26,125 bases of DNA from a virus, in IMG/VR virus record IMGVR_UViG_3300027797_000121, positions 1 to 26,125 of that record. One strand, given 5' to 3'. Positions 2,876 through 22,590 of the stretch are shown one piece after another. Numbering within the stretch: the stretch's first letter is position 1; each line of letters starts with the position of its first letter. The translations under genes and the position numbers were made by a program. The notes under the pieces are model-generated. The model searched no databases, was not told where the DNA came from, and saw only the letters and a list, made by a program, of their open reading frames with translations.

Positions 2876-3820
2876 TTACGCTACTGATGAACCGTTTAGG
2901 ATTCGATACAGGGCTGCTTCGCGATAACGCTTGAAGCCAAGTACGCCGTACCAACCCATAGGTCGGAAACGCATCAATTGGTCAATAACTGGACCGATAA
3001 CAATATGTGGCTCTTCAGCAACGGCCTCAGCCAATGCTTCTTTTCCACAAAGAATTGTACGGTATACCTTGGCGCTTGAAGCACCGTCAGTATCATTGAA
3101 CATACGAGCAGACTCTACAAAGTAGGCTCCTTCGTATGAACCGATTTCTCCAGCCCAAATGTTGTCATTTGAGTTGTACTCGTGAGGCAAACGCCATCCA
3201 CCAGCACCAGTCTCAGCACGAAGGTCGTGTGAGATTTCTGGGTGAATACCACACCAGTACATTGAACCCTTGCGAGGTACTGATAAACCAGAACGTAACT
3301 TAGCAACAGCCTTACGGATGTTAGCAGAAGTAATTGTATCTGTAGCAGCGATTGTTACAGTGTTAGTACGTGTACCACCGTAGATGATATTAGTACCACC
3401 ACGAAGTTCAGTCTGTGCAACTGTATCAATTGAGCCTGCAAGGTTGAAAGCGATAATGTTAGCGATTGCAGGGTCTACATCAGCAAGGCTGAATAGTTCC
3501 AACGCACGTGTAACAAGTACAGAGTTACCATACTCAGCAAGAGTAATAGTAACTGATGTAGGAGCAGCGATTGCTACAGAATCTTTCTCTGTAGATTCTG
3601 TCAGAGCAGTTGTTGACTCTGATAGGTCTGCGTATAATTGTAGAATTACGGTTGAGCCAGGATTTGCCAATTTAGCAGGGCGCTTGTCGGCGACACTACG
3701 AATAAGGGGTTCTGAACGCAACGCGAAGTCTAATAGACGGTCGTAGGCTTTTTGGACTACACCGGCTGCACCAGCGGTACCGGCAAGGTTGCCAGTTGAC
3801 GAGGTATATAGATTAGCCAT
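2876..3820 (-). CDS. Major capsid protein, N4-gp56 family
   Basis: This 314 aa protein builds the head shell. It has the layout of the N4-gp56/P22-coat-like HK97-fold family: an N-terminal helix (VVQKAYDRLLDFALRS), a strand pair containing LAEYGNSVLVTRALE at 95-108, and HPEISHDLR at 193-201. GEIGSYEGAYFVES at 224-237 follows, the family's signature 'W..GEIG.YEG..FVE' region. Its length is near the usual size. A strong Shine-Dalgarno (GGAGGTGAAC) lies directly before ATG at 3820, in keeping with a very highly expressed protein. It follows the scaffold gene, the classic order. No N-terminal delta domain or cleavage site is evident. Confidence 0.88.
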   Translation of the reverse strand: MANLYTSSTGNLAGTAGAAGVVQKAYDRLLDFALRSEPLIRSVADKRPAKLANPGSTVILQLYADLSESTTALTESTEKDSVAIAAPTSVTITLAEYGNSVLVTRALELFSLADVDPAIANIIAFNLAGSIDTVAQTELRGGTNIIYGGTRTNTVTIAATDTITSANIRKAVAKLRSGLSVPRKGSMYWCGIHPEISHDLRAETGAGGWRLPHEYNSNDNIWAGEIGSYEGAYFVESARMFNDTDGASSAKVYRTILCGKEALAEAVAEEPHIVIGPVIDQLMRFRPMGWYGVLGFKRYREAALYRILNGSSVA

Positions 3821-3858: not shown

Positions 3859-4335
3859 TTAATTGCCTTGAATTATTGAAGTAAGTTCATCTGCGGTAGC
3901 CGCATTCATAACTCTATTCATTAAATCTTGGGCTTTGTCAGGGGTCGTACCAAGTTGAGTAACTACATCCTGTTGCCTTAAGGCTGCACGATTTAGTTCC
4001 TGTTCCTCAGTTGCCGCTGGCTCTTTGGTTAATCCAAACAAATCGCCATTTTCGTCAAGCCAGGTATTAACTGACTCTTCACTAATGTCTTCTAAGTCTT
4101 TAAGGATTAATCTTTGTGCCTTTGGATTGACACCCTTCTTGTCTAGGACCTCTTTGACTACACGCTCACGCTGCGACTTGGATAATCCCTCAAGTTGCTC
4201 AGTAAGTTCCTTAATACGCTTTTCATCGTTACGCTTGGCTTTCCGCAATTTTTTAAGTAAATCGCTTCCGTCCATCTGTGTCTCGTTGTCGGTATCTTGG
4301 TCGTCTTCGTCTTCATCCCAGTAGTTGTTGCTCAT
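3859..4335 (-). CDS. Putative capsid scaffolding protein
   Basis: This is a 158 aa, highly charged protein with an acidic head (DEDEDDQDTDNET, residues 7-19) and a coiled-coil segment (about 22-60, LLKKLRKAKRNDEKRIKELT). Helical segments follow to the C-terminus. Size, acidic/coiled-coil composition and its position immediately upstream of the major capsid gene are typical of phage scaffolds. These guide shell assembly and then leave the head. The start has an upstream purine-rich AAGGGTGGG. The gap before it (4336-4458) holds a structured RNA. No protease signature is present in the protein. Confidence 0.75.
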   Translation of the reverse strand: MSNNYWDEDEDDQDTDNETQMDGSDLLKKLRKAKRNDEKRIKELTEQLEGLSKSQRERVVKEVLDKKGVNPKAQRLILKDLEDISEESVNTWLDENGDLFGLTKEPAATEEQELNRAALRQQDVVTQLGTTPDKAQDLMNRVMNAATADELTSIIQGN

Positions 4336-7374: not shown

Positions 7375-10300
7375 TTACTCCCTAACATATTTGAAATCAT
7401 CATTATCAAAATACCTGTCATAAAACTTACCAAAATTAATATCATTACTTCTTAAGTTTAAAACATAATCATCAACTTCGTTACGTATATCATATGCTCT
7501 ATCTGAAGTAAGTGAAATCCCACCACGACTATCTAATTTATCTTTTATGTAGAATCTAAAGTTTAGATAATCAATAATGCTATGCCATCTTGCTTGTTTT
7601 GATAAATCAGCCCAAAGTTTTTCGTTATTTGCAGCAATGGTTAAATTATCTACAACATTTTTAAGACTTGCATTGGTGTCTCTATCTTGTTTTTCTTCCC
7701 ACCAAATTTGATTGTCTGTTTTCATCTTCTCTATAAATGATTTTTTATATGAGTCTAGGACGGATTTTCCGTAACCACTTGTTGGGCTATATGGAGGATT
7801 GTTCTGTAATAGCATCCCTGAGACTACTTCTTTAAGTTGAGTCCAGTTATTCCAACCTTCGTTAACTAATGAAGAGCGAGCATTCTCTAAAGCGGTTTGG
7901 CTGCCAGTCCATAAATCCTTAGTCCCAGGTATGGTATTAGTTTGTAACCATGCTTGAGCAGAACTTGAGAACGCATAATTCTCATCATTAAAAACAGCAC
8001 CTAAGGTTCTTAAATCTTTGTCAGTACCCATTGCTATAACCATCTCAGTAACAATGTCTGAATTCTTTTTAACTAATTCTTGAGATGTTTTATCTGGATA
8101 GATACCTGATGTTGCATCGGTTAATTTGTCGACTATCATAAAATAATCTGGATAGTCTTCTAAGAATTTTTGAGTTCCTTCTGGTCCACCTAGATTTTCT
8201 TGATACATTCTAAGTTTATCAGAATAAACCTGCAATGGTGAAACGTATCTAGGTTGTTGAGGCAATAAGCCTGAACCAAGGAATCTAATCCAAGCCATAT
8301 ACTTGGCTTCTTTTCCAGATTCTTTTTGTATTATAGCAAAATCTTTTTCGTTTACAAAACGGTCATTATCTTGTTTGAATTCAAATATCTTGTTTTCCAT
8401 TATCATGGCGGTATCTTTATTTAATTGTTCAGAATTACCTTTAAACCATGCTGACCATGCTTGACCTAATCTTCTTACTGTTGTTGGTTCAAGGACAGCA
8501 AGAGAATTCTTTTGAACTCCAAATGGAAGGATAGCATTTTGCATCCATTCTTCTAGTTCAATATTGGTTTCTTTAAGAAGTTGATTTGTAACGGCTGCTA
8601 CATAAGGACTTGTAGAAAATATATTTCCACCTGTTGGATTAAATGGATTAAACCAATCGGTAGACAATCTTGCTTTAATGTTATCTCCAAGAAATGGCAA
8701 AGTTACTTCTACATACTCTTGACCATTAGGGTCAACTTGAACTTCATTCAGTCTTGAGGGAATAGACCTCATCTGCATGGTCTTTAAAATAAATTCTGGA
8801 TTCTCAGATATCAATCTGCCATAAACTTTGTATTGTTCTACTATTGCAGGAAAAAATGCAATAAGGTAATTCATGGCTTCAGGATAGTTTGAATCTCTAC
8901 TAAAAGCGTTTAATTTGCCTCTAAGTTCTTTTAAGGCATATGAATGTGCATTAGCGTGATATGCTTCCATGTTTAATTTACTTGGAATTATACCCTGAGC
9001 ATTTGCTACCGCAACCATGCTTTGTAATTTTTGTTGGTAAGATACGGCATAGTATGGGTTATAGGCTAATTTAGCAGGTGCCCAAGTAGATAAAGAACTT
9101 ACCCAATTTTTCATTACGCTATTAACTTTTAACAACCCTGAACTTTGACCTAATAAATCTAGAGCCATATCGGTAACTATTTCAGGACGTACTTCAACAT
9201 TAGGATACATTTTTTCTAATGTAAGGGCATTAACCTTACCTTCAACAACAAGTTTTTGTAACGCTATGTCTTTTCCAGTAAATTGGTTAACTGCGGTTGC
9301 TATTCTATCGTAAACTGTTTCAACATCAACAGAACGAGGGCTACGACCTAGGCTGGGCATAAAACCAAAACTATCTAATTTTGTTCTATACTCTATAGAT
9401 TTCATGTATTTAAGAATCTCTTTTTTAGAGGTTCCCTGCATTATCTTTACAGCAACTGGGTCAGAAGGTAAAACGTTAACTAAAATATTTTCCCAGGACC
9501 TTAAATGTAAATCTTTGTTTTCTCGCGTTGGCTTGATAAGGTGTCCACCTTCTCTATCACGCCTAATTGCCGCTAATTCTAATTCATTGTTAGATGTCAA
9601 TAAACCACGCAAGTCATCTTTTCCTGTAATTTTTTGCATAGTTATTTTGCCATAGACGCCATCACGATAATCTACAAAAGCGTAATCGGAAATCATGAGT
9701 GGTTTCCTACTAACAATTTTGTTAGGAATATTTGATACTAAACTTTGTTTTCGTTGTTCTAAGGCTGTTACATTATTCTTTACAATATTGTACCAGTCTA
9801 AAGTTCTTTGGACTTCAGGTTTAATCTTTTTAGGAGGCTTATTAAAATTATAACCAAAGTTCCTTAAACTTTGTTCTACTTCGCTTAATACTTTAATGCG
9901 AAGGTCTAATTCTTTACTAGTTCGTTTTAGATTGTAACTTCTGTCAGTTACAATTTTAGTCCAACGATTAATTTTTCCAACAGAATTATTACGATTGGTA
10001 AAATCTTCAAATGTTTGTTTTCCAAATTCTTTTACAACATTAAAGTATTGGCCATCGGCAGCAATACGTAATACGTTATCTCGCATAATGTTTTGTGGGT
10101 AACCAGCACGAAATAAAGTAAGGTTTCTCCAAATGGCATTATACTCGTCACCGAAATGTTTTGCAACATAGTAGGCGGTTTTAATTCCGCCGTGATTTTT
10201 ATTTTGGTGTCTAGCAAATTCTGCAAAGGCTTTATCTAAAACAGCAATATCGGGTAGATAACTACCGTTTGCAAGTTGGCTTACTAATACTGGGTCTGCA

Positions 10301-12312
10301 ACAGCGTCTCCAGTTTTAGGGTCACGCATGTAAGCCCTATTTTCGCTCTTAGCATCAGCCGCTAATTTTCTATTTTCTTTTACTTTTGCAAAATATGTTT
10401 TTATTACATATTCTATTTGTGATTCAGGAATTCCGTGTTTAATGGCAATTCTTTCAAAAATTGTTTTAGTAAAATCTTCAACATATTTTAATTTTTCACC
10501 TTCAAAACGAGTGCCTAAAAATTTATTATATAAATCTTGAACTTCATCTTGTTTTAAGATTCCGTTTTTTACGCCTTCTCTAATAGTTGTACGCATTCTA
10601 GTACTAGATTGAAGCGGGTCATTAAAATTAATTGTGCTATGCGGAGCATCATCGGTCCATCTTTCAACAGCACGTATTACAGGTCCAAAAGTTCCACCCT
10701 GGTATATTCTTTGTGTGACTTTACCACCAAGAGTTTCTCTTGAAGTTAAATCAGTTTTATTAATACCTAATTTGTTTGCAATTCTTTGTTTAGCAATATC
10801 ATTTTTTCTTTTTTCAATTATTGGGAAAATTGAAACAGTTCTTTCCTGCAAAGCGCTATCTAACCTTAATGTTTTTGCAAGGTCGGCATTCTTTCCAGTT
10901 AATTCTTTTAATTCGCCTTCAAGAATTTCTTTTCTATTTTGTAAAGATTTTTTAATGTATTTATTACTTGATGTTGCTGGAAGACTTTTTAATTCAAATT
11001 GATTTAATTTAGATTCTGACCTAAGCAATTGAGCAAAAGTGGATTTATGTTTTGTTGCTAACTCTTCAATAGCCTTTACATCTCCACGACCAACTCTAAA
11101 CAATAGAGCAATTTCAGAATATGATTTACCAGCCATCAATTGAGAAGCCATGTATGAGATTTCGCCACCTAATTGGAACTCTGTGCGCAAACCTACAGTT
11201 GCTGCGTCATTTTTACTGATAAACTCAAACATTGGGGTATAAACTGTTTTTTCACCAGCAGCGGTTCTATTTAATAAATCAACATCTGCTTGCAATCTGT
11301 TTTTAATTTTTTCAGGTGTATCAACTAATTTTTGTATTGCCCCGCCGACCATAGTCTGTTTTGCTGTTGATACTCCACCAATTGTTGCAACTCTGGCAAC
11401 TTTACCAAGAAGTTGAACACCTTTTATGTCTGGCGATGTTGGAAATTCATATGCTATATTAAGGAGCCCAGAAACAACTGCACCAATACCAGTGTCTGTA
11501 TTTTGTAATTCCTTAGAACCGCTGATTCTTCCAGCAGCCTTAGTGGCATCCCTGCCAAAGTTATACATTTCTTGACCTTGTACTGATTGAGCAAACAAGG
11601 CAGAATTTTGAAACTGTGTACCAAGTGCTCCAGTCTCAGATGTTGCTCTTAATGCTTTTCCTCCACCGTAAAATCCTAATACCGCAGCAGTACCTGCAAG
11701 AAAACCAGCAGCATTACCTATTCCCGGTACAACAGAGCCAGCAGCCGTAGCAGCGGCTATAGTACCGACTCCAGCAGCAATTGCTCCGCCAATTTGTGCA
11801 AGACCAGTAAGTAAACCAAAAGATGCATTGGTTTCTAAATTTGCTCTTAAAAATGAATAGTTTGAACGAACACCTTTTGTAGCAGTCATGAGAGCATGGT
11901 TTACTTTACCACCAGATGCTTTATCTAATTGACCAAGTCCATACATAGATGCACCTAAAGCAGCACCTGCTGCCATACCCGCTGGGCCAAAAAATCTACC
12001 TACTACCGCAGCGCCACCAATTGATTTTGCTGGGCTTTGAAGAACTTGTTGTGCAAAATCTAATGTTGCTTCTCTTTTTTTCTCAACATTTTGATTCCAT
12101 ACAGGATTTAAACTAGAGTCATTAATAACTTCTTGTCCCGCTTGGTTAGCAGAAGCATAAGTTCCAGGGTACTTAGGTATATTTGCAGCAATGTCAGAGG
12201 CAAGACCATAATTAACATAACCTTGATTATTATATACTGGTTGTGCAATTTGTTGTCCATCTTTATGCCAGAATATATTTTGTAAATTTGCTATTCTGTC
12301 CCAAAGACTCAT
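7375..12312 (-). CDS. Giant 1645 aa virion-like protein, putative internal/ejection protein
   Basis: The frame is open to 12405, but the first good start is ATG 12312, forming an ATGA overlap with the stop of the upstream 160 aa gene; the product begins MSLWDRIANLQNIFW. Residues about 97-125, 165-195 and 197-220 are Gly/Ala-rich and hydrophobic (for example GGAIAAGVGTIAAATAAGS), the look of membrane-inserting glycine-zipper helices. The rest is a long, helical, charged protein. Near residue 700 a segment has the pattern W.NLTLFRAGYPQNIMRDN, resembling large virion or polyvalent proteins of actinobacterial phages. No transglycosylase or protease motif was found. Size, hydrophobic head and position suggest an internal protein ejected with DNA, in the manner of T7 gp16, but a different fold is likely. 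Confident as a gene, tentative in role. Confidence 0.7.
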   Translation of the reverse strand: MSLWDRIANLQNIFWHKDGQQIAQPVYNNQGYVNYGLASDIAANIPKYPGTYASANQAGQEVINDSSLNPVWNQNVEKKREATLDFAQQVLQSPAKSIGGAAVVGRFFGPAGMAAGAALGASMYGLGQLDKASGGKVNHALMTATKGVRSNYSFLRANLETNASFGLLTGLAQIGGAIAAGVGTIAAATAAGSVVPGIGNAAGFLAGTAAVLGFYGGGKALRATSETGALGTQFQNSALFAQSVQGQEMYNFGRDATKAAGRISGSKELQNTDTGIGAVVSGLLNIAYEFPTSPDIKGVQLLGKVARVATIGGVSTAKQTMVGGAIQKLVDTPEKIKNRLQADVDLLNRTAAGEKTVYTPMFEFISKNDAATVGLRTEFQLGGEISYMASQLMAGKSYSEIALLFRVGRGDVKAIEELATKHKSTFAQLLRSESKLNQFELKSLPATSSNKYIKKSLQNRKEILEGELKELTGKNADLAKTLRLDSALQERTVSIFPIIEKRKNDIAKQRIANKLGINKTDLTSRETLGGKVTQRIYQGGTFGPVIRAVERWTDDAPHSTINFNDPLQSSTRMRTTIREGVKNGILKQDEVQDLYNKFLGTRFEGEKLKYVEDFTKTIFERIAIKHGIPESQIEYVIKTYFAKVKENRKLAADAKSENRAYMRDPKTGDAVADPVLVSQLANGSYLPDIAVLDKAFAEFARHQNKNHGGIKTAYYVAKHFGDEYNAIWRNLTLFRAGYPQNIMRDNVLRIAADGQYFNVVKEFGKQTFEDFTNRNNSVGKINRWTKIVTDRSYNLKRTSKELDLRIKVLSEVEQSLRNFGYNFNKPPKKIKPEVQRTLDWYNIVKNNVTALEQRKQSLVSNIPNKIVSRKPLMISDYAFVDYRDGVYGKITMQKITGKDDLRGLLTSNNELELAAIRRDREGGHLIKPTRENKDLHLRSWENILVNVLPSDPVAVKIMQGTSKKEILKYMKSIEYRTKLDSFGFMPSLGRSPRSVDVETVYDRIATAVNQFTGKDIALQKLVVEGKVNALTLEKMYPNVEVRPEIVTDMALDLLGQSSGLLKVNSVMKNWVSSLSTWAPAKLAYNPYYAVSYQQKLQSMVAVANAQGIIPSKLNMEAYHANAHSYALKELRGKLNAFSRDSNYPEAMNYLIAFFPAIVEQYKVYGRLISENPEFILKTMQMRSIPSRLNEVQVDPNGQEYVEVTLPFLGDNIKARLSTDWFNPFNPTGGNIFSTSPYVAAVTNQLLKETNIELEEWMQNAILPFGVQKNSLAVLEPTTVRRLGQAWSAWFKGNSEQLNKDTAMIMENKIFEFKQDNDRFVNEKDFAIIQKESGKEAKYMAWIRFLGSGLLPQQPRYVSPLQVYSDKLRMYQENLGGPEGTQKFLEDYPDYFMIVDKLTDATSGIYPDKTSQELVKKNSDIVTEMVIAMGTDKDLRTLGAVFNDENYAFSSSAQAWLQTNTIPGTKDLWTGSQTALENARSSLVNEGWNNWTQLKEVVSGMLLQNNPPYSPTSGYGKSVLDSYKKSFIEKMKTDNQIWWEEKQDRDTNASLKNVVDNLTIAANNEKLWADLSKQARWHSIIDYLNFRFYIKDKLDSRGGISLTSDRAYDIRNEVDDYVLNLRSNDINFGKFYDRYFDNDDFKYVRE

Positions 12313-12791
12313 ATTATATTTTGCTCTCCGCTTGACGCTGTGTATTGGGTAAGGTAGTTTGTATATTCTGCTGTAGCCCGCGAAGTTCCAGGCATACTTG
12401 CCCATGTTTGCATAAGAGGTAATTGTTGACGAATCATTTCAATGTCTGGGTCCGCAGAAGGATTACTAGGTAAATTAGGAACATAATTTAATCCCTTACC
12501 AACTGCTGCGCCATCTGTTACAGGTGTGTTAGGTTCTTGAGTTTCATCTAAAATTGATGTTAATGCTGGAGGATTATATGATGTTTCTGCCGCTGCACTA
12601 GTATTCATTGAAGCAATTGCAGCATTTCCTGTTTCTCTGTTTTCATTAATTGTTTTATTTTGACCATAGGTAAACCCACTATAATCACCACTAGTTCCAT
12701 TGCCACCTGCACCATTAACATTAGCAGGATTATTTTGTGGAGCATTTGGTTGGTATCCGCCACGTGTTTCTGGTGAATTCATTGACGACAT
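12309..12791 (-). CDS. 160 aa Asn/Gly/Pro-rich protein
   Basis: The first ~100 residues are low complexity (N, G, P, T, S, A). The C-terminal 45 residues are more ordered, with DPDIEMIRQQLPLMQTWASM followed by a helix. A strong Shine-Dalgarno (GGAGGATAAA) precedes ATG 12791, 9 bases after the upstream stop. Its stop overlaps the start of the giant protein gene (ATGA), which points to translational coupling. Function unknown; it may be a small partner or chaperone for the giant protein. Confidence 0.65.
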   Translation of the reverse strand: MSSMNSPETRGGYQPNAPQNNPANVNGAGGNGTSGDYSGFTYGQNKTINENRETGNAAIASMNTSAAAETSYNPPALTSILDETQEPNTPVTDGAAVGKGLNYVPNLPSNPSADPDIEMIRQQLPLMQTWASMPGTSRATAEYTNYLTQYTASSGEQNII

Positions 12792-12800
12792 TTTATCCTC

Positions 12801-13343
12801 CTACTTAATTTTTCTAGGTTGTTCTTTTGATATATAAGGACCTGCAGTAAATGCAGTAAGTTTAGATGCTATTTCCATTGCTTCAAATGCATCTGCTCCT
12901 GCATACAATGCACCAAGTGCGTATGAGGCTCCAGAACCTGCAGCGTATACTCCGTCTGCAGACTTGCTTATTGATAACTCTTGGTCAATATCAAATATTT
13001 CTCCACCAACAGCCATTATAAACTGGAAGCGACTTTCTTTACTATCTTCTTCAAAATTATAACCATTTGCTGCCATACATTTACGCAAAGATGGCATTGC
13101 CTTTACAATCATAAAATGATAAAGGTCTTCTTTGTCTTGCTTAGTAGGAGTTGGTGGCTCCCAAATATGTTGAGTTATATCACACGGTAATGTTTCTCCA
13201 GAACCAGCAATTAAAAACATTCCATTTTCAGAAATCTTTTTAACTTCAGGGTGTGTATAAATTCTACCATCAGCATCAGTTGTTTGGCTATCAACAACTA
13301 TGAAGCAACGGTCTTTATGTTCTAAACCTATAATTGTTGTCAT
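12801..13343 (-). CDS. Proteasome/HslV-like Ntn hydrolase in the capsid module
   Basis: This 180 aa protein matches the proteasome beta-subunit/HslV layout. It starts MTTIIGLEHKDRCFIVVDSQ, so removing Met exposes Thr1 as the nucleophile. D18 (VVDS) and K35/K36 (HPEVKKIS) fall where Asp17 and Lys33 are expected. AAGSGASYALGALYAG at 134-149 matches the conserved GSG region of HslV. The C-terminal AFTAGPYISKE strand also fits. Its length is close to HslV. It lies directly after the portal gene, a place where phages usually encode the head maturation protease, and no classical prohead protease is seen in the window. It could process head proteins or degrade host proteins; the first is inferred from position. 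Confidence 0.82.
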   Translation of the reverse strand: MTTIIGLEHKDRCFIVVDSQTTDADGRIYTHPEVKKISENGMFLIAGSGETLPCDITQHIWEPPTPTKQDKEDLYHFMIVKAMPSLRKCMAANGYNFEEDSKESRFQFIMAVGGEIFDIDQELSISKSADGVYAAGSGASYALGALYAGADAFEAMEIASKLTAFTAGPYISKEQPRKIK

Positions 13344-13357
13344 TGTCCCCTACTTTT

Positions 13358-15124
13358 TTATCTACGTCTTACACTTCTAACGCTTGCTGATGCTTTTCCT
13401 GAACCTGTTAGTCCAGAAATTAAACTCATAACATCTTGTTCTTGTTGCTGTGGCATTGGAGAAGGAGAGCCTCCTACTGGACCACCAAGGGGAGCAGGGG
13501 ACGTTTGCTCAACCGTTGGATTAGGGGCACCAGCAGGAGGGACCTGTTGTTGCGGTGCAAAGGTAGCCTCAATAGCATCTTCTAATGCTTGTCCCTTTTG
13601 GCGAGCCTTGATTACCGCAGCAATTTTATTTACCATTTCTGACGGGTCTTGTCCCTGTGTTGCCATCGCTGGTATAGCCTGAGCCATTGCTGTAATACCA
13701 CTGAGTAATGCTGTACGCATATCCTCAATTTCAATTTTTTCAAGTTCTTGTGTTACGTTAACAGTAAATGGCAACTCACGCATAGCCATATCTTTAGATA
13801 TTAATTTACCACCAAGAGCCTGTAACATAAAGATAAGACCTTGGGCTGGATTAAGACCAGCAAGCATACCGTATCTAACATCGGCTGAATAGTCATTTTT
13901 AATATCTTTAGTTGGCTTGTAAGTAATTTCATATGGAGAACCAGAGTCTACACCACGAATTGTTTTTTCTTCAGGGTAAATAACTTCATCAACCTCAAAA
14001 CAAAGACCAATTACATCACGAAGTGCTGCAGCAAAAATTGCTTGTGCTGATTTAACCTGTGTGTCAAAGGCTCCCATAAGAGCCTGCACACCTTGACCAG
14101 TAACAATAGAAGCATCAATGTTTCCAGTTCTTGATTCTGGATAACGAGTTCCTACTCTTAACTCTTGGTTAAGAACATTCTGTTCTGTAAATGCACCTTG
14201 TGGTAGGGTAAGTTCTACTCGACGAACACCTGCTGGGTTGGCGGTGCGGATAACCGCATCTCCACCCAGTTGTAATTCTTGTACATCTTGTGGAAGTACA
14301 ATAGGTGCCTGTACTGATTTCTCCGCTGCTTCCATTGCCAATAAGGCGAAACGGTTGCGGAGTAACTGAATTCCAAGTACATCGTCAAACTGTCCACGCA
14401 TCTCACCATCAATAGATGGTTTACGTGCGACAACAACCATTAGTTTACCTAATGGATTATTTGCTTGTGATAAAATTAAATCTTGTTTTGTAGGTACATA
14501 AATAACTGATTGGTCTTTATCGTAATAACGAATCATTTCTATCTGAGCATTTAAATCTTGTTTATAACCTAGTCCACCTAAAAGTTGATATTCGTGTTCT
14601 GGGAACTGGCTTACTAACTCACCTAAGGTAAGTACATATCTTTTAGCAAAAGCAATACAACGACCATAACGGTCAAAATCTGGATAAGAACCAATTGGAT
14701 TTTCTAAACGAATACGAGGTAGTTTTATTTCATCATCTAATTCAATTACAAATGGAACAAAGCCGTAAGTTAGATACCAGTCTGCTCCTTGATACATCTG
14801 GACCGATAGGTCAGAGTTCGAGAAATAATTACTAGCAATACGAGTACGCTTATCGGCAAAAGTACGAGCACGGTCAGAGACCTGATTAGCGGCCGAGCAG
14901 TTAACTGCTGGAAGAGGCGCCATAACTTCTGAAAGGTCCCTGGCAACGATATCAATAAAATTTGCCACGACATTAGCATCTACTCCTTCTGGAAAAAAGT
15001 TAGGGTAGACTTCAGCAATCTTACCTCTACGCACAGCAAGTACGTCAAGGTTGCGACCATCACGCTCTGTGCTTCTATAGCGTAAAGATTGAACTCTTGC
15101 TGCTATTTGTTGGATATCTAACAC
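13358..15124 (-). CDS. Portal protein
   Basis: The 588 aa product forms the DNA entry ring at one head vertex. It has typical portal features. An N-terminal segment contains QIAARVQSLRYRSTERDGR. A middle domain contains NYFSNSDLSVQMYQGADWYLTYG, followed by strands with LENPIGSYPDFDRYGR. A long helical region follows, and the C-terminal tail is Pro/Gln-rich (about 520-565) and ends SVRSVRRR. Length is normal for a portal. The GTG start at 15124 overlaps the upstream stop (TAGTG). It lies between terminase and the capsid genes, the expected order. Call based on position, size and general pattern. Confidence 0.85.
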   Translation of the reverse strand: MLDIQQIAARVQSLRYRSTERDGRNLDVLAVRRGKIAEVYPNFFPEGVDANVVANFIDIVARDLSEVMAPLPAVNCSAANQVSDRARTFADKRTRIASNYFSNSDLSVQMYQGADWYLTYGFVPFVIELDDEIKLPRIRLENPIGSYPDFDRYGRCIAFAKRYVLTLGELVSQFPEHEYQLLGGLGYKQDLNAQIEMIRYYDKDQSVIYVPTKQDLILSQANNPLGKLMVVVARKPSIDGEMRGQFDDVLGIQLLRNRFALLAMEAAEKSVQAPIVLPQDVQELQLGGDAVIRTANPAGVRRVELTLPQGAFTEQNVLNQELRVGTRYPESRTGNIDASIVTGQGVQALMGAFDTQVKSAQAIFAAALRDVIGLCFEVDEVIYPEEKTIRGVDSGSPYEITYKPTKDIKNDYSADVRYGMLAGLNPAQGLIFMLQALGGKLISKDMAMRELPFTVNVTQELEKIEIEDMRTALLSGITAMAQAIPAMATQGQDPSEMVNKIAAVIKARQKGQALEDAIEATFAPQQQVPPAGAPNPTVEQTSPAPLGGPVGGSPSPMPQQQEQDVMSLISGLTGSGKASASVRSVRRR

Positions 15125-15435: not shown

Positions 15436-17304
15436 CTAGTTATAAGTTTCTTGCCATTGCTCTGCAAAGGCTTCATCTAAATTAATTCCGTATCTTTTAC
15501 TCTGTTGCGCTCTGGTAGCCCACCTATTATTTTGGTAGTTACCAACCTTGCTTGACTTTTGCATTAATTCTCTACAGCGTATTATAGCAAACCATAAAGC
15601 CATTACACAGTCGGTTGGGTTCTTAGTATCAGGTTTCCAAATAATTAACTGCTGCACCAAAGACTTAAGTCCTTCAGAGCCTTCATTAGAAGGTAGTTCT
15701 AATATGTTGTTGTCTTGGAATCTACCATCATGCACGGTGCCAAATAGGCTAGCCATAGAGGCAACACCAAAACCAACGTCCCACTTATTCTTGCCAGTAA
15801 AATGCGAATTAAGTTGACAGCCATAGGTTGCTAGGTAGTCTCTAAGTTCTGAGTCCATAGCATAGTACTTTTGGTGGGCGTTAATCTCAACCCTAAACTC
15901 TTGTGGTCTAAACTTCTCTACCCATTCTTTAATAAGAGCATTCTCTTTTTGTGGGGTAGGGTCAACCATGTTAACACAGTCTAAAACATATATACGGCTA
16001 TCAGCACGATTATAAGATACAGCCACAAAGGCTGACCTTCCAGTTACCGCAGGGTCAAAACCAATAATAGTATAAAGTGAATCTACGTTCTTTGGGTGTC
16101 CTGGCGTTTCTGATTTAAGAGGTCCACGCTTTCGCATACCGTTAACACATCCTGCGACAATTGTTGGCGAGAATATGGAATCGGATTGGACGTCTTCTTG
16201 CTGGTAGACCATAGCCCAGACTGACGGAGCAACTTCAGACCGCCTTGTAAAAAGCGAGGGTCCATCCCACTTGGGGTATAGTCCTTGCTCATTAGGTTGG
16301 TCCTGTTCTCCTTCTGCTCTATCTGTCCAAGGCCAGAGTGTTTTCCAGTTCTTGGGGTCTTCATCAAATTCTAATACGGCTGGCATAGCCATGTATGTGA
16401 ATGGAGTCTTGCCACCTGTCCATTGGTCAGGGTCTCTAATCATTTTATATAAATCAATAGGCGCGACACGGGTTCCTACTATAAGCAGTTTTCCATGTCG
16501 CCCTAGGCGGGTGATAACTTCTTTTTGAAGCCATTCAATTTGCTTCTCCCACTCATGGGCATTTGCGTTCATCACCACATCATCAAGGATAATCAGGTCG
16601 GCGCGAGCACCGTAAATCTGGGAACCAAATCCTAAGGCTTGCACCGTAGGGTCTTTCTCTCCAGAGTCTCTTCCTGCTCCTAGATAAATCATGTCGGCTG
16701 ACCAAGTTGGCGAGTCTGCTTTGTAGCCACCGTTAGGTCCAAAAGACACTTGCATCTTGGTCCAGTTAGGGTGGCTTAATCTTGTCTTAATCGCAGATAG
16801 GAACTTACGAGCCATACCTTGCGTCTTTGATACAATAATGATTCTAACGTTAGGGTCTATAGATAACCGATAGGTAACGTAGTTGATGGTAAGTACTGTG
16901 GACTTAGCATGCTCTGGTGGTACGTTAATAAGAATACGATTAGTTGCTGCTTGCTCATAAGTCATACTAGGGTGGATAGACCTTGGTTCTTTACCCTCTA
17001 TTAAATCAATCCAAGTCTTATGATGGTCGAATAACTTAGTCTCTAGGAATTGCTCACTAAAGTCTTCAAAGGATATATCTTTTAGATTGGCAAGGTCTGC
17101 TTTGATACCTTTGCCTGAAAGGCGGGCTTTGTCCGCTTTGTCTTTAAAGTCTGGGTCTGCCATAGACCATTGCCGGAAGGTAGTATCGTTTCTGCCTACG
17201 GCTTTCATAGCGTCTATTACGCTAGCCCCTTGGGCTAACAGTTCTAGTACTTGGGGTTGGGCGCTATCTTTAGGGATGTTCTGTACACCTGGTTTACGAC
17301 CCAA
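15436..17304 (-). CDS. terL: Terminase large subunit with N-terminal HTH region
   Basis: This 622 aa protein packages DNA into the head. Residues 128-136 (VPPEHAKST) form a variant Walker A and DLIILDD (236-242) a Walker B for the ATPase. The nuclease domain shows IIGFDPAVTG with D417, RVEIN with E473 and D565 (TDCVMALWFA), the usual RNase H-like acidic triad. Residues about 15-62 (LLAQGASVIDAMKAVGRND, then FRQW and ADPDFKDKADKAR) look like the HTH of terminase small subunits fused at the N-terminus. No separate small subunit gene is visible. The start is TTG 17304, supported by AGGGGG 5 bases upstream. Confidence 0.92.
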   Translation of the reverse strand: MGRKPGVQNIPKDSAQPQVLELLAQGASVIDAMKAVGRNDTTFRQWSMADPDFKDKADKARLSGKGIKADLANLKDISFEDFSEQFLETKLFDHHKTWIDLIEGKEPRSIHPSMTYEQAATNRILINVPPEHAKSTVLTINYVTYRLSIDPNVRIIIVSKTQGMARKFLSAIKTRLSHPNWTKMQVSFGPNGGYKADSPTWSADMIYLGAGRDSGEKDPTVQALGFGSQIYGARADLIILDDVVMNANAHEWEKQIEWLQKEVITRLGRHGKLLIVGTRVAPIDLYKMIRDPDQWTGGKTPFTYMAMPAVLEFDEDPKNWKTLWPWTDRAEGEQDQPNEQGLYPKWDGPSLFTRRSEVAPSVWAMVYQQEDVQSDSIFSPTIVAGCVNGMRKRGPLKSETPGHPKNVDSLYTIIGFDPAVTGRSAFVAVSYNRADSRIYVLDCVNMVDPTPQKENALIKEWVEKFRPQEFRVEINAHQKYYAMDSELRDYLATYGCQLNSHFTGKNKWDVGFGVASMASLFGTVHDGRFQDNNILELPSNEGSEGLKSLVQQLIIWKPDTKNPTDCVMALWFAIIRCRELMQKSSKVGNYQNNRWATRAQQSKRYGINLDEAFAEQWQETYN

Positions 17305-19710: not shown

Positions 19711-20943
19711 ATGGAAACTGTTGATGAAGTAGAAGTCAAGTGTTGTATCGCTTGCAATACTGAATTAAATAGTGATGATGACGGCACTACTACTAGTAGC
19801 GGAGACCCTGTCTGTGAAAGTTGTATGATAATGTGTATCAAATGTGAGAGTGTTATCACAGTTGATGATGAATACAATGATGTAGAGGGTGAGTTATGGT
19901 GTCGAACATGTACTCGTGATGAGGCTATTTGGTGTGATGTGTGCGATAACTATTTTACTGGTTATTCATACACCGCAGATGATAGTAGTGATACTATGTG
20001 TGAACAATGCTTTGAGAATAACACTTCTTACTGTGAGGAGTGTGATACTAATTATGTAAATGGTTGCGAATATAACCATGAAGATGAAGATGATAGCAGG
20101 ATTATACATGATTATTCGTATAGACCTGACCCTATCTTTCATAGTTCAGAGGATGAGCAGACACGCTTATACTTTGGCATAGAAGTAGAAACAGAAACAC
20201 GAGGTGGCGATTATAACGATAGGAGAAACGCTGCCGAGTATGCAGTTAAACTAGAGAGGCAAGACCTAGCCTATCTCAAATCTGACGGCTCACTAAATTG
20301 TGGGTTCGAAATAGTAACTCATCCATTATCCCATAGTTACTTTATGAATGATGCTAGTTCTCTATGGGATACTATAGAAACACTTAAGAATAATTATAGT
20401 ATGATGGCATGGGGTACAAAAACTTGTGGACTTCATATCCATATATCTCGTAATGGGTTTAGTGGTGGTTCACACCAGCATAGATTCTTACAGTTAGTGT
20501 ACAACAACAAGGACTTCTACGAAGTGCTTGCTGGTAGGTCATCTAGTCATTGGGCTAAGTTTGATGATGTACTTGACCCTATGACTGGTAAGAAAACCTT
20601 TGCACACAAGTTGAATAGAAATCATAGAGATAGCGACAGATACTCTGCCGTCAATACCAACAACAGAAACACACTAGAGATGAGAATCTTTAGAGGTAGT
20701 CTGAACACTAGATTCATCAAGTCATGTATAGACTTAGCGCATGCCAGCGTTGAGTTCACAAGAGTGATGAGTGTTCCCGAGGTCAGGGGGCACAAGTTAG
20801 ATTGTATTAACCTAATACAATATATCCGAGAGAGAGTAGAGTTATATCCTTCTCTCAATCAAAGATTAAATGGTATGTCCAATGTGATAGATAAAATAGA
20901 GAGGAAAGAATATGTGCCTATTGGTAGTAAGTTCCCCGAATAG
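19711..20943 (+). CDS. Amidoligase-family enzyme with N-terminal zinc-binding CxxC region
   Basis: The 410 aa product has two parts. Residues 1-125 hold seven CxxC pairs (C12/C15, C35/C38, C42/C45, C64/C67, C75/C78, C97/C100, C108/C111), like LIM or tandem zinc-ribbon modules. From about 150 on comes the glutamine-synthetase-like COOH-NH2 ligase (Amidoligase_2) pattern: FGIEVETE, SDGS (191-194), CGFEIVTHP (197-205), CGLHIHIS with H242/H244, and N318, E323, R325 in TNNRNTLEMRIFRG. Such enzymes join a carboxylate to an amine with ATP. The next gene is a glutamine amidotransferase that could supply ammonia. The substrate (peptide, cell-wall or DNA precursor) is unknown. A palindrome precedes the start. 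Confidence 0.85.
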   Translation: METVDEVEVKCCIACNTELNSDDDGTTTSSGDPVCESCMIMCIKCESVITVDDEYNDVEGELWCRTCTRDEAIWCDVCDNYFTGYSYTADDSSDTMCEQCFENNTSYCEECDTNYVNGCEYNHEDEDDSRIIHDYSYRPDPIFHSSEDEQTRLYFGIEVETETRGGDYNDRRNAAEYAVKLERQDLAYLKSDGSLNCGFEIVTHPLSHSYFMNDASSLWDTIETLKNNYSMMAWGTKTCGLHIHISRNGFSGGSHQHRFLQLVYNNKDFYEVLAGRSSSHWAKFDDVLDPMTGKKTFAHKLNRNHRDSDRYSAVNTNNRNTLEMRIFRGSLNTRFIKSCIDLAHASVEFTRVMSVPEVRGHKLDCINLIQYIRERVELYPSLNQRLNGMSNVIDKIERKEYVPIGSKFPE

Positions 20944-21733
20944 TACACCCAAGCGTAAAGACCTAGAGTGTGCTTCGTGTAATAATCCGCATGGCTTTGG
21001 CTATGCTGTAATTGCTGGTAATAAAATTATTACTGGCAAGGGTATGTCTGCTAAGAAAATAATCAAAGAGTTCTTAGCGGTGCGTAAGCAATACCCAAAT
21101 AGTTATGCTATGTATCATGCTAGATTTGCTACGCATGGTGTTAAGAATGATGATAACTGTCATCCATTCCAAGTGGGTGGTAGCGACATGACTTACTTAG
21201 CACACAATGGTATTCTTAGTGTGGATATCCCTGCTAATGATAAGCGTAGTGATACGCGTATCTTTGCTGATGATATTCTACCTGCTATGGGTGGTGTCAA
21301 AGCATTAGATGATGTCAATCTATACAGTATGCTAGAAGGCTGGTCTGCTGGTAACAAGATTGCTATATTTACCCTAGACCCTGTGGCTATGTATGATTGC
21401 TACATTATCAACGAGGACTTAGGTCATTGGGATAATGATGGTAACTGGTGGTCTAATGAAACCTACAAGGCTACTGCTTGGAGTACTCTCTTTAAGAGAG
21501 GTAATGATTACTATGACTTAGAGGATATAGGTGGTAGTGAAGATGATTGCATGTGTTATGGGTGTGGTGTACCTAGACTAAGTGATGATAATCCATATTA
21601 TTGCTTTGATTGTGGTACATGTTATGATTGTAGCATGGTCAAAGATGATGGTTGCCTATGCTGGACACCTGAACGGGAGAAATCCGTCCAACACAAACCA
21701 ATATATGACGGACAATATGACTTTGGCTTCTAA
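20912..21733 (+). CDS. Class II glutamine amidotransferase with C-terminal zinc knuckles
   Basis: The 273 aa product begins MCLLVV, so Cys2 becomes the N-terminal nucleophile of an Ntn amidotransferase. Further family marks are GFGYAV, HARFATHG (69-76), NCHPF (82-86) and AHNG (97-100), which shape the glutamine pocket. Residues 213-250 carry C213, C215, C218, C231, C234, C237, C240, C248 and C250, a compact metal-binding knot. It overlaps the amidoligase gene by 32 bases, with GAGGAAAG just before ATG 20912. It probably releases ammonia from glutamine for that ligase. The shared zinc modules suggest the two form a complex. A CCAACACAAAC site lies near its 3' end. Confidence 0.85.
   Translation: MCLLVVSSPNSTPKRKDLECASCNNPHGFGYAVIAGNKIITGKGMSAKKIIKEFLAVRKQYPNSYAMYHARFATHGVKNDDNCHPFQVGGSDMTYLAHNGILSVDIPANDKRSDTRIFADDILPAMGGVKALDDVNLYSMLEGWSAGNKIAIFTLDPVAMYDCYIINEDLGHWDNDGNWWSNETYKATAWSTLFKRGNDYYDLEDIGGSEDDCMCYGCGVPRLSDDNPYYCFDCGTCYDCSMVKDDGCLCWTPEREKSVQHKPIYDGQYDFGF
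21684..21699 (+). repeat. CCAACACAAAC motif inside GATase gene
   Basis: The string TCCGTCCAACACAAAC is identical to 19609-19624. It lies 66 bases before the palindrome at 21754. Confidence 0.7.
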
Positions 21734-22026: not shown

Positions 22027-22172
22027 TGGAACTAGAAAAAGATGCAATATGGGCAGCAACAATAAATAAGACTGATATAGGAAATATGGATGAAGCCATG
22101 ATTAATAGAATGATTGTGGAGTTAAATGTAACCTTCCAAAAGATATGTTGGGACTATGGAATACACAACTAG
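22026..22172 (+). CDS. 48 aa helical protein
   Basis: ATG 22026 overlaps the preceding TAA (TAATG), and the frame ends at TAG 22172. The product is MELEKDAIWAATINKTDIGN followed by MDEAMINRMIVELNVTFQKI and CWDYGIHN. It looks like two helices. Its end overlaps the WhiB-like start by 17 bases. The overlaps support translation. Function unknown. Confidence 0.6.
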   Translation: MELEKDAIWAATINKTDIGNMDEAMINRMIVELNVTFQKICWDYGIHN

Positions 22173-22590
22173 ACCTGCTGCAGTTAATCTAACTCATTCT
22201 GTATTCAATTATAAATCTGATGATAAAGAGTTAGACTTAAGCAAGGGGTCATGCGTTGGAAGTGATGACCCTGATATGTGGTTCGCTGGTGAAGTAGACA
22301 TAACTGAACTTAGTAGTTCTGTTAATGGTAGTTCACAAGTAATCAAACTAGAAGTAGATAAGGCTATCAAAGCACTATCTATATGTAAGAACTGTCCCGT
22401 TAAAGATGATTGCTTAGAACTAGGCAAGCATGGTCAGCAACTATACTTCGGTATATATGGTGGCACTATGCCAGGAGAGAGGTTGGCTATGGTTGGTAGG
22501 CTCACAAAGAACTCTATTATCAGACAGAAAGCAAGGTTTGCCATCAAGGTTAGAGATACTATGACAGAAAGGGGGATAGAATGGAGATAA
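22156..22590 (+). CDS. WhiB-like transcription regulator
   Basis: The 144 aa protein has the four cysteines that hold a 4Fe-4S cluster in WhiB proteins: C33 (GSCVGSDDPDMWF), C77 and C80 (SICKNCP) and C86 (DDCLELG). It also has the G[I/V]xGG turn as FGIYGG (98-103), and PGER and a basic C-terminus suited to DNA contact. WhiB proteins act with the primary sigma factor at promoters and occur only in Actinobacteria and their phages. An insert of about 30 residues lies between the first and second cysteines. It overlaps both neighbours. It may control host or phage promoters; binding to the palindromes nearby is untested. Confidence 0.9.
   Translation: MEYTTRPAAVNLTHSVFNYKSDDKELDLSKGSCVGSDDPDMWFAGEVDITELSSSVNGSSQVIKLEVDKAIKALSICKNCPVKDDCLELGKHGQQLYFGIYGGTMPGERLAMVGRLTKNSIIRQKARFAIKVRDTMTERGIEWR

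Follow-up and report, generated by a model that had tools for sequence, protein, structure and literature searches.

The window, i.e. the whole stretch of 26,125 nucleotides analysed here, is a 26-kb virus record. Its minus strand carries a gene for a threonine peptidase of the Ntn type directly behind the portal gene, within a region of head and packaging genes. The relevant features are:

2876..3820, minus strand: major capsid protein (MCP), no long N-terminal propeptide apparent (phrog_1357 1e-74, PF13252)
3859..4335, minus strand: probable scaffold, 158 aa, acidic N-terminus, adjoining the MCP gene (phrog_7813 7e-32; weak match to phrog_648, head scaffolding)
7375..12405, minus strand: 1676-aa virion-region protein, highly variable among relatives (phrog_10618 3e-35)
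12309..12791, minus strand: 160-aa protein whose gene bounds the exchange slot on the side away from the portal (phrog_8200 2e-8)
12801..13343, minus strand: 180-aa threonine peptidase of the Ntn type, a group I proteasome homologue with catalytic Thr2, Asp18, Lys36 and Gly49
13358..15124, minus strand: portal protein; 14 bp separate its gene from that of the peptidase downstream (phrog_104 5.6e-30)
15436..17304, minus strand: large terminase subunit; the ORF tool placed its start at a TTG codon (phrog_38 6e-61)
19711-20943, plus strand: Amidoligase_2 (PF12224, E 3e-7)
20912-21733, plus strand: a further Ntn hydrolase, similar to class II glutamine amidotransferases and beginning with MCLLVV; its gene directly follows that for Amidoligase_2
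22156..22590, plus strand: WhiB-like regulator, a marker of an actinobacterial host (PF02467 4e-8)

The peptidase reading frame starts with ATG and is free of stops. The original prediction, made from the letters alone, had described a 180-aa gene adjoining the portal, with Thr directly after Met1, Asp at +17, Lys near +33-35 and a GSGASYALGAL block. All of these were found: Thr2, Asp18 (mature position 17), K35 and K36 (mature 34 and 35) and the block at residues 136-146, in a gene separated from the portal stop by 14 bp. K36 is the invariant one of the two lysines and aligns with the catalytic Lys33 of HslV and the proteasome, its mature position 35 matching this site because a loop is slightly longer in the phage peptidase. 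Gly49 corresponds to the oxyanion-hole glycine. A gap of 9 bp precedes the next gene downstream. The proposed location upstream of the scaffold and capsid genes held as far as gene order is concerned, but five genes and ~8 kb, including the 1676-aa gene, lie in between. In agreement with the original prediction, the window showed no AAA+ partner, and the 25 related records searched contained no match to AAA_2 (ClpX/HslU-type) ATPases; a partner supplied by the host is conceivable. No promoter of its own clearly beyond chance (7 found versus 4.1 expected) and no terminator were found around the peptidase gene.

The peptidase matched phrog_1040, 'peptidase HslV family', over the whole protein (E 6e-27; PHROGs). 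Taken alone it stayed below the cut-off of the Pfam Proteasome model (E 0.048); in a diverse alignment of homologues, with identities to the window peptidase as low as 19%, each of the 17 members had a match to the Proteasome family, with E-values no higher than 0.1 and 2e-6 as the best. The profile built from these 17 phage homologues retrieved HslV (1m4y, 2.5e-15) and BPH, the betaproteobacterial proteasome homologue (5ovs, 2.3e-13), among solved structures, with the phage Thr2 falling on the catalytic Thr1 of both. T2, D18 and K36 were invariant in 361/361 homologues, as were G136 and G138, and G49 was kept in 358. Loss of the Thr nucleophile, one of the two observations that had been named as contrary evidence, thus did not occur. 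The AlphaFold2 monomer model (pLDDT 91.9, pTM 0.87), a check that had been suggested at the outset, adopted the fold of proteasome beta subunits, including the two flanking helix pairs (helices 51-60, 74-92, 139-147 and 152-162). It had neither a propeptide nor a C-terminal S12/H5, the chain ending after strand 171-176. BPH was its best fold match, at Z 18.5 and 24% identity (3.0 A over 167 residues), followed by HslV (Z about 17), proteasome beta and Anbu; the top ranks held proteasome-like proteins only, and other families may occur lower down. Phage proteins with the same fold were common in BFVD.

At the sequence level, the phrog_1040 E-value, the HslV and BPH profile matches and the invariant T2, D18 and K36 lie beyond chance. 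Sequence, profile, predicted fold and active-site conservation all supported an Ntn peptidase of the HslV/proteasome type, and the peptidase is a member of the group I proteasome-like family (HslV/BPH/AAH/PPH group). This family and its occurrence in phages were already known (phrog_1040; Fuchs et al. 2021, PMC8665760). Median dN/dS amounted to 0.06 for the type found in the window and to 0.11 and 0.10 for two other peptidase types. Given this strong purifying selection and the complete, invariant active site, the window peptidase is very probably a functional enzyme.

Since the window holds a WhiB gene and shares its portal with the Streptomyces Beephvirinae (about 44%) and with the phages LanE43AprE7 and F5, which infect 'Ca. 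Planktophila' (PMC10202952), we place its phage, from gene content, among the freshwater actinophages of about 39-40 kb. Scans of bacterial genome contigs with the peptidase and the portal, which need near-exact peptides, gave no match. The 1676-aa protein varies so much that its N-terminal part often had no BLAST match even in relatives whose portals and MCPs are nearly identical.

The portal gene was found directly upstream of 307 of the 362 peptidase genes, at a distance within 40 bp in 305/362. Of the gene order, which the original prediction had proposed to look for in related phages, the placement of the peptidase right behind the portal recurred in about 300 related contigs, and near-complete family members carried exactly one peptidase gene each. 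Portal-anchored scans yielded 103 distinct portals with a readable slot, 72 followed by a peptidase and 31 not, a ratio that is not a prevalence, as the second scan was seeded from a peptidase-free phage. These 31 distinct relatives, with homologous portals, held an unrelated protein of 73-79 aa or one of 86 aa in the slot. The 73-79 aa family occupied the slot at 38 loci, near-copies included, none of which had a peptidase. Its members, with sequences of the type YSKLDQYAIELHEFFKSLRRAGFTVDNAL... and an acidic tail, lie for example at L104:5701-5922, L135:4004-4234, L144:3996-4232 and in L381-L413. No phrog_1040 match was present in the 12 whole records behind peptidase-free loci, among them a 30.5-kb contig and two complete Beephvirinae; several of the other records are short fragments. 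Beephvirinae with homologous portal and MCP had no peptidase genome-wide. Close relatives without the gene had portals 83-86% identical to that of the window, and up to 94% portal identity was observed between a peptidase-bearing and a peptidase-free phage.

The slot, which holds a peptidase of type A, B, C or D or none at all, changed its content 24 times when mapped on the portal tree, and the replacement was mostly another peptidase. Portals 98% identical to each other were followed by peptidases of type A and type D that are only about a quarter alike. In the pair L029/L251 the peptidase reached a relative BLAST score of only 0.24, against 0.96 (portal), 0.86 (giant protein) and 0.80 (160-aa protein) for its neighbours. 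Conversely, near-identical peptidases stood next to different giant proteins in 462 pairs. Judged from these comparisons, the peptidase is swapped independently of its neighbour genes. Either homologous recombination at the portal end swaps the contents of the slot, or the slot has a job that can be filled by the peptidase and by the 75-aa protein. We also considered a coupling of the peptidase to the 1676-aa or the 160-aa neighbour, for instance in the processing of an ejection protein, and rejected it since partial rank correlations were only 0.07-0.09; these values passed a permutation test, but are very small, and there are clear counter-examples.

Outside the window's family, the peptidase was encountered in quite different surroundings. 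Each of the three main portal-linked clades of the peptidase tree also held members from other contexts, which amounts to at least six context changes. The gene lies outside the head genes in DSL-LC01, AAS21, R16F, D'Alembert, XacN1 and MTATph1; it follows a CHAP lysin and precedes a Cas4-like nuclease and a DnaB-like ATPase in L302/L310, is a single gene against the flanking strand in L335/L340 and was found on a 129.5-kb contig in L224. Arthrobacter phage Pitbull has a classical head maturation protease (phrog_193), scaffold and MCP as genes 4, 5 and 6, and an Ntn protease as gene 77, near the right end. L364 carries a peptidase homologue together with an S78 head maturation protease, the latter beside its MCP. 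This S78 domain is part of a 611-aa protein (L364:14352-16184, between portal and MCP) that joins it to ferritin-like and Tudor-like domains. In Vibrio phage R16F two neighbouring genes (L087:8001-8989) both bear the annotation of nucleophile aminohydrolase, and in actinophage DSL-LC01 (L083:10001-10954) a WhiB gene directly follows the peptidase gene among small non-structural genes.

The original prediction had proposed that the peptidase was recruited to capsid maturation. Our data did not support this proposal, as close relatives without the peptidase keep the same scaffold and MCP. We rejected an obligatory prohead protease because of this absence in close relatives and because of the other genomic contexts. 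A prohead protease at least in the carrier phages, degrading the scaffold or trimming portal or MCP inside the prohead, would fit a gene that is co-directional with and located between portal and scaffold/MCP, and fixed in the portal slot of most sampled family members. A classical prohead protease elsewhere in the genome had been named as contrary evidence. In the window's own family, a search of 24 records for S78, ClpP-type and phrog_193 proteases found none, which would agree with a prohead role of the peptidase. Other carriers, however, have an S78 or a phrog_193 protease in addition to their peptidase homologue, and the position between portal and MCP, a property of the window's family, is not shared by these carriers. 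Furthermore, the MCP showed no obvious propeptide, and the scaffold and MCP N-termini of the peptidase-free L104 and L114 resemble those of carriers. HslV-like chambers take unfolded chains, and such a chamber would be poorly suited to site-specific trimming of a folded coat protein. Together with the lack of the gene in Beephvirinae, these points make a prohead protease of carrier phages quite unlikely in our view. We see only a slim chance for a facultative virion-assembly protease in carriers, whose task might be, for instance, to remove scaffold, or portal and late proteins that were misassembled, within the prohead or close to it, with the 75-aa protein as its substitute in sister phages. 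If true, a proteasome fold would serve capsid assembly.

The repeated replacement of divergent peptidase types in the same slot might also reflect an arms race, with the peptidase removing a specific host protein for takeover or counter-defence. The moron-like single-gene settings in L335/L340 and the proximity to whiB in DSL-LC01 are in line with such a role. Selection within types was strongly purifying, however, rather than diversifying, neither a target nor a defence system came to light, and in the window's family the gene is co-directional with the late genes and has no promoter of its own beyond chance. We consider a host-directed function unlikely. One member of the proteasome-like family, connectase, is a ligase (PMC8665760), and the window contains genes for an amidoligase and for a protein similar to class II glutamine amidotransferases; this might point to an Ntn activity other than proteolysis, for instance that of an amidase or of a connectase-like ligase of proteins. 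The predicted model, however, has no long insertion near the active site like that described for connectase. The amidoligase occurred in only 10/25 related records and the peptidase in 24/25; the two are therefore uncoupled, and we regard a non-proteolytic activity as very improbable. Pup-like tagging via the window amidoligase was rejected on the same grounds.

We favor, with a probability of roughly 60%, an accessory, late-expressed compartmental threonine peptidase that acts in the infected actinobacterium and is dispensable for building and maturing the head, because close relatives with the same kind of head lack the gene or carry an exchanged version of it. Met1 would be clipped by the host methionine aminopeptidase, which would turn Thr2 into the nucleophile, and the subunits would form a ring or double ring. 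By analogy to BPH, which degrades proteins without a dedicated ATPase (PMC8665760), this ring might cut unfolded or loosely folded polypeptides on its own or borrow an ATPase from the host. Its position suggests late expression with the portal, and its action would take place in the cytoplasm of the infected actinobacterium and not in the prohead, with clearing or recycling of host or aberrant phage proteins as a likely use. The tight linkage to the portal in its own phage family (305/362 within 40 bp) speaks against a merely accessory role. Linkage and replacement mostly by another peptidase may be a hint that the job is tied to the late operon.

As far as gene content tells, the head module can do without the peptidase, which appears to be an accessory, exchangeable protease at work in the infected cell rather than a capsid-maturing enzyme. 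The fixed portal-linked locus in a large family of freshwater actinophages and its exchange pattern are apparently new, as is the evidence against the obvious prohead reading; our literature search found no paper tying a proteasome homologue to prohead maturation. For a protease adjoining the portal, position alone is thus insufficient for the label of prohead protease. No function is known for the proteasome homologues of phages. This one comes with an informative context: a fixed locus, repeated swaps, many natural comparisons with and without the gene and cultured phage-host pairs make its function directly testable.

Comparison with known systems places the peptidase near several relatives. 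It is a direct member of phrog_1040; the PHROGs entry gives neither function nor context, whereas the gene described here is tied to a fixed place beside the portal in one phage family. With HslV (ClpQ) it shares fold, active site and a profile match of 2.5e-15, but HslV proper was excluded, since the peptidase reached 14.9 bits against a curated HslV equivalog cut-off of 137. HslV moreover works with an HslU-type AAA+ protein, none of which was found in the 25 related records. BPH (5ovs/5ovt/5ovu) shares the fold, the aligned Thr1 and a compact, propeptide-free subunit; it is, however, encoded by a bacterial gene and has a double-ring assembly and a pore loop; the phage peptidase was modelled as a monomer. 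The phage-associated group I homologues AAH, PPH and CPH are, like the window peptidase, phage-borne, with group I features and no known partner or function. PPH has about 140 residues and no helix H2; the window peptidase has 180 residues and, in the predicted model, H2 (74-92) and both helix pairs. Membership in the PPH subfamily is unlikely because of this modelled H2. The survey of Fuchs et al. 2021 included no actinophage AAH and no informative genomic context (PMC8665760), and a study on Salmonella jumbo phages described HslV-like genes without HslU beside prohead proteases (PMC7823757). The closest cultured counterparts are the Planktophila phages LanE43AprE7 and F5 (OX376640, OX376641; PMC10202952), relatives of the window phage that show the same gene order of TerL, portal, peptidase, 160-aa homologue, giant gene, scaffold and MCP. 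They differ from the window by an 84-aa ORF after the peptidase, and their peptidases are only 36-38% identical to that of the window, whereas their portals are 83-84% identical.
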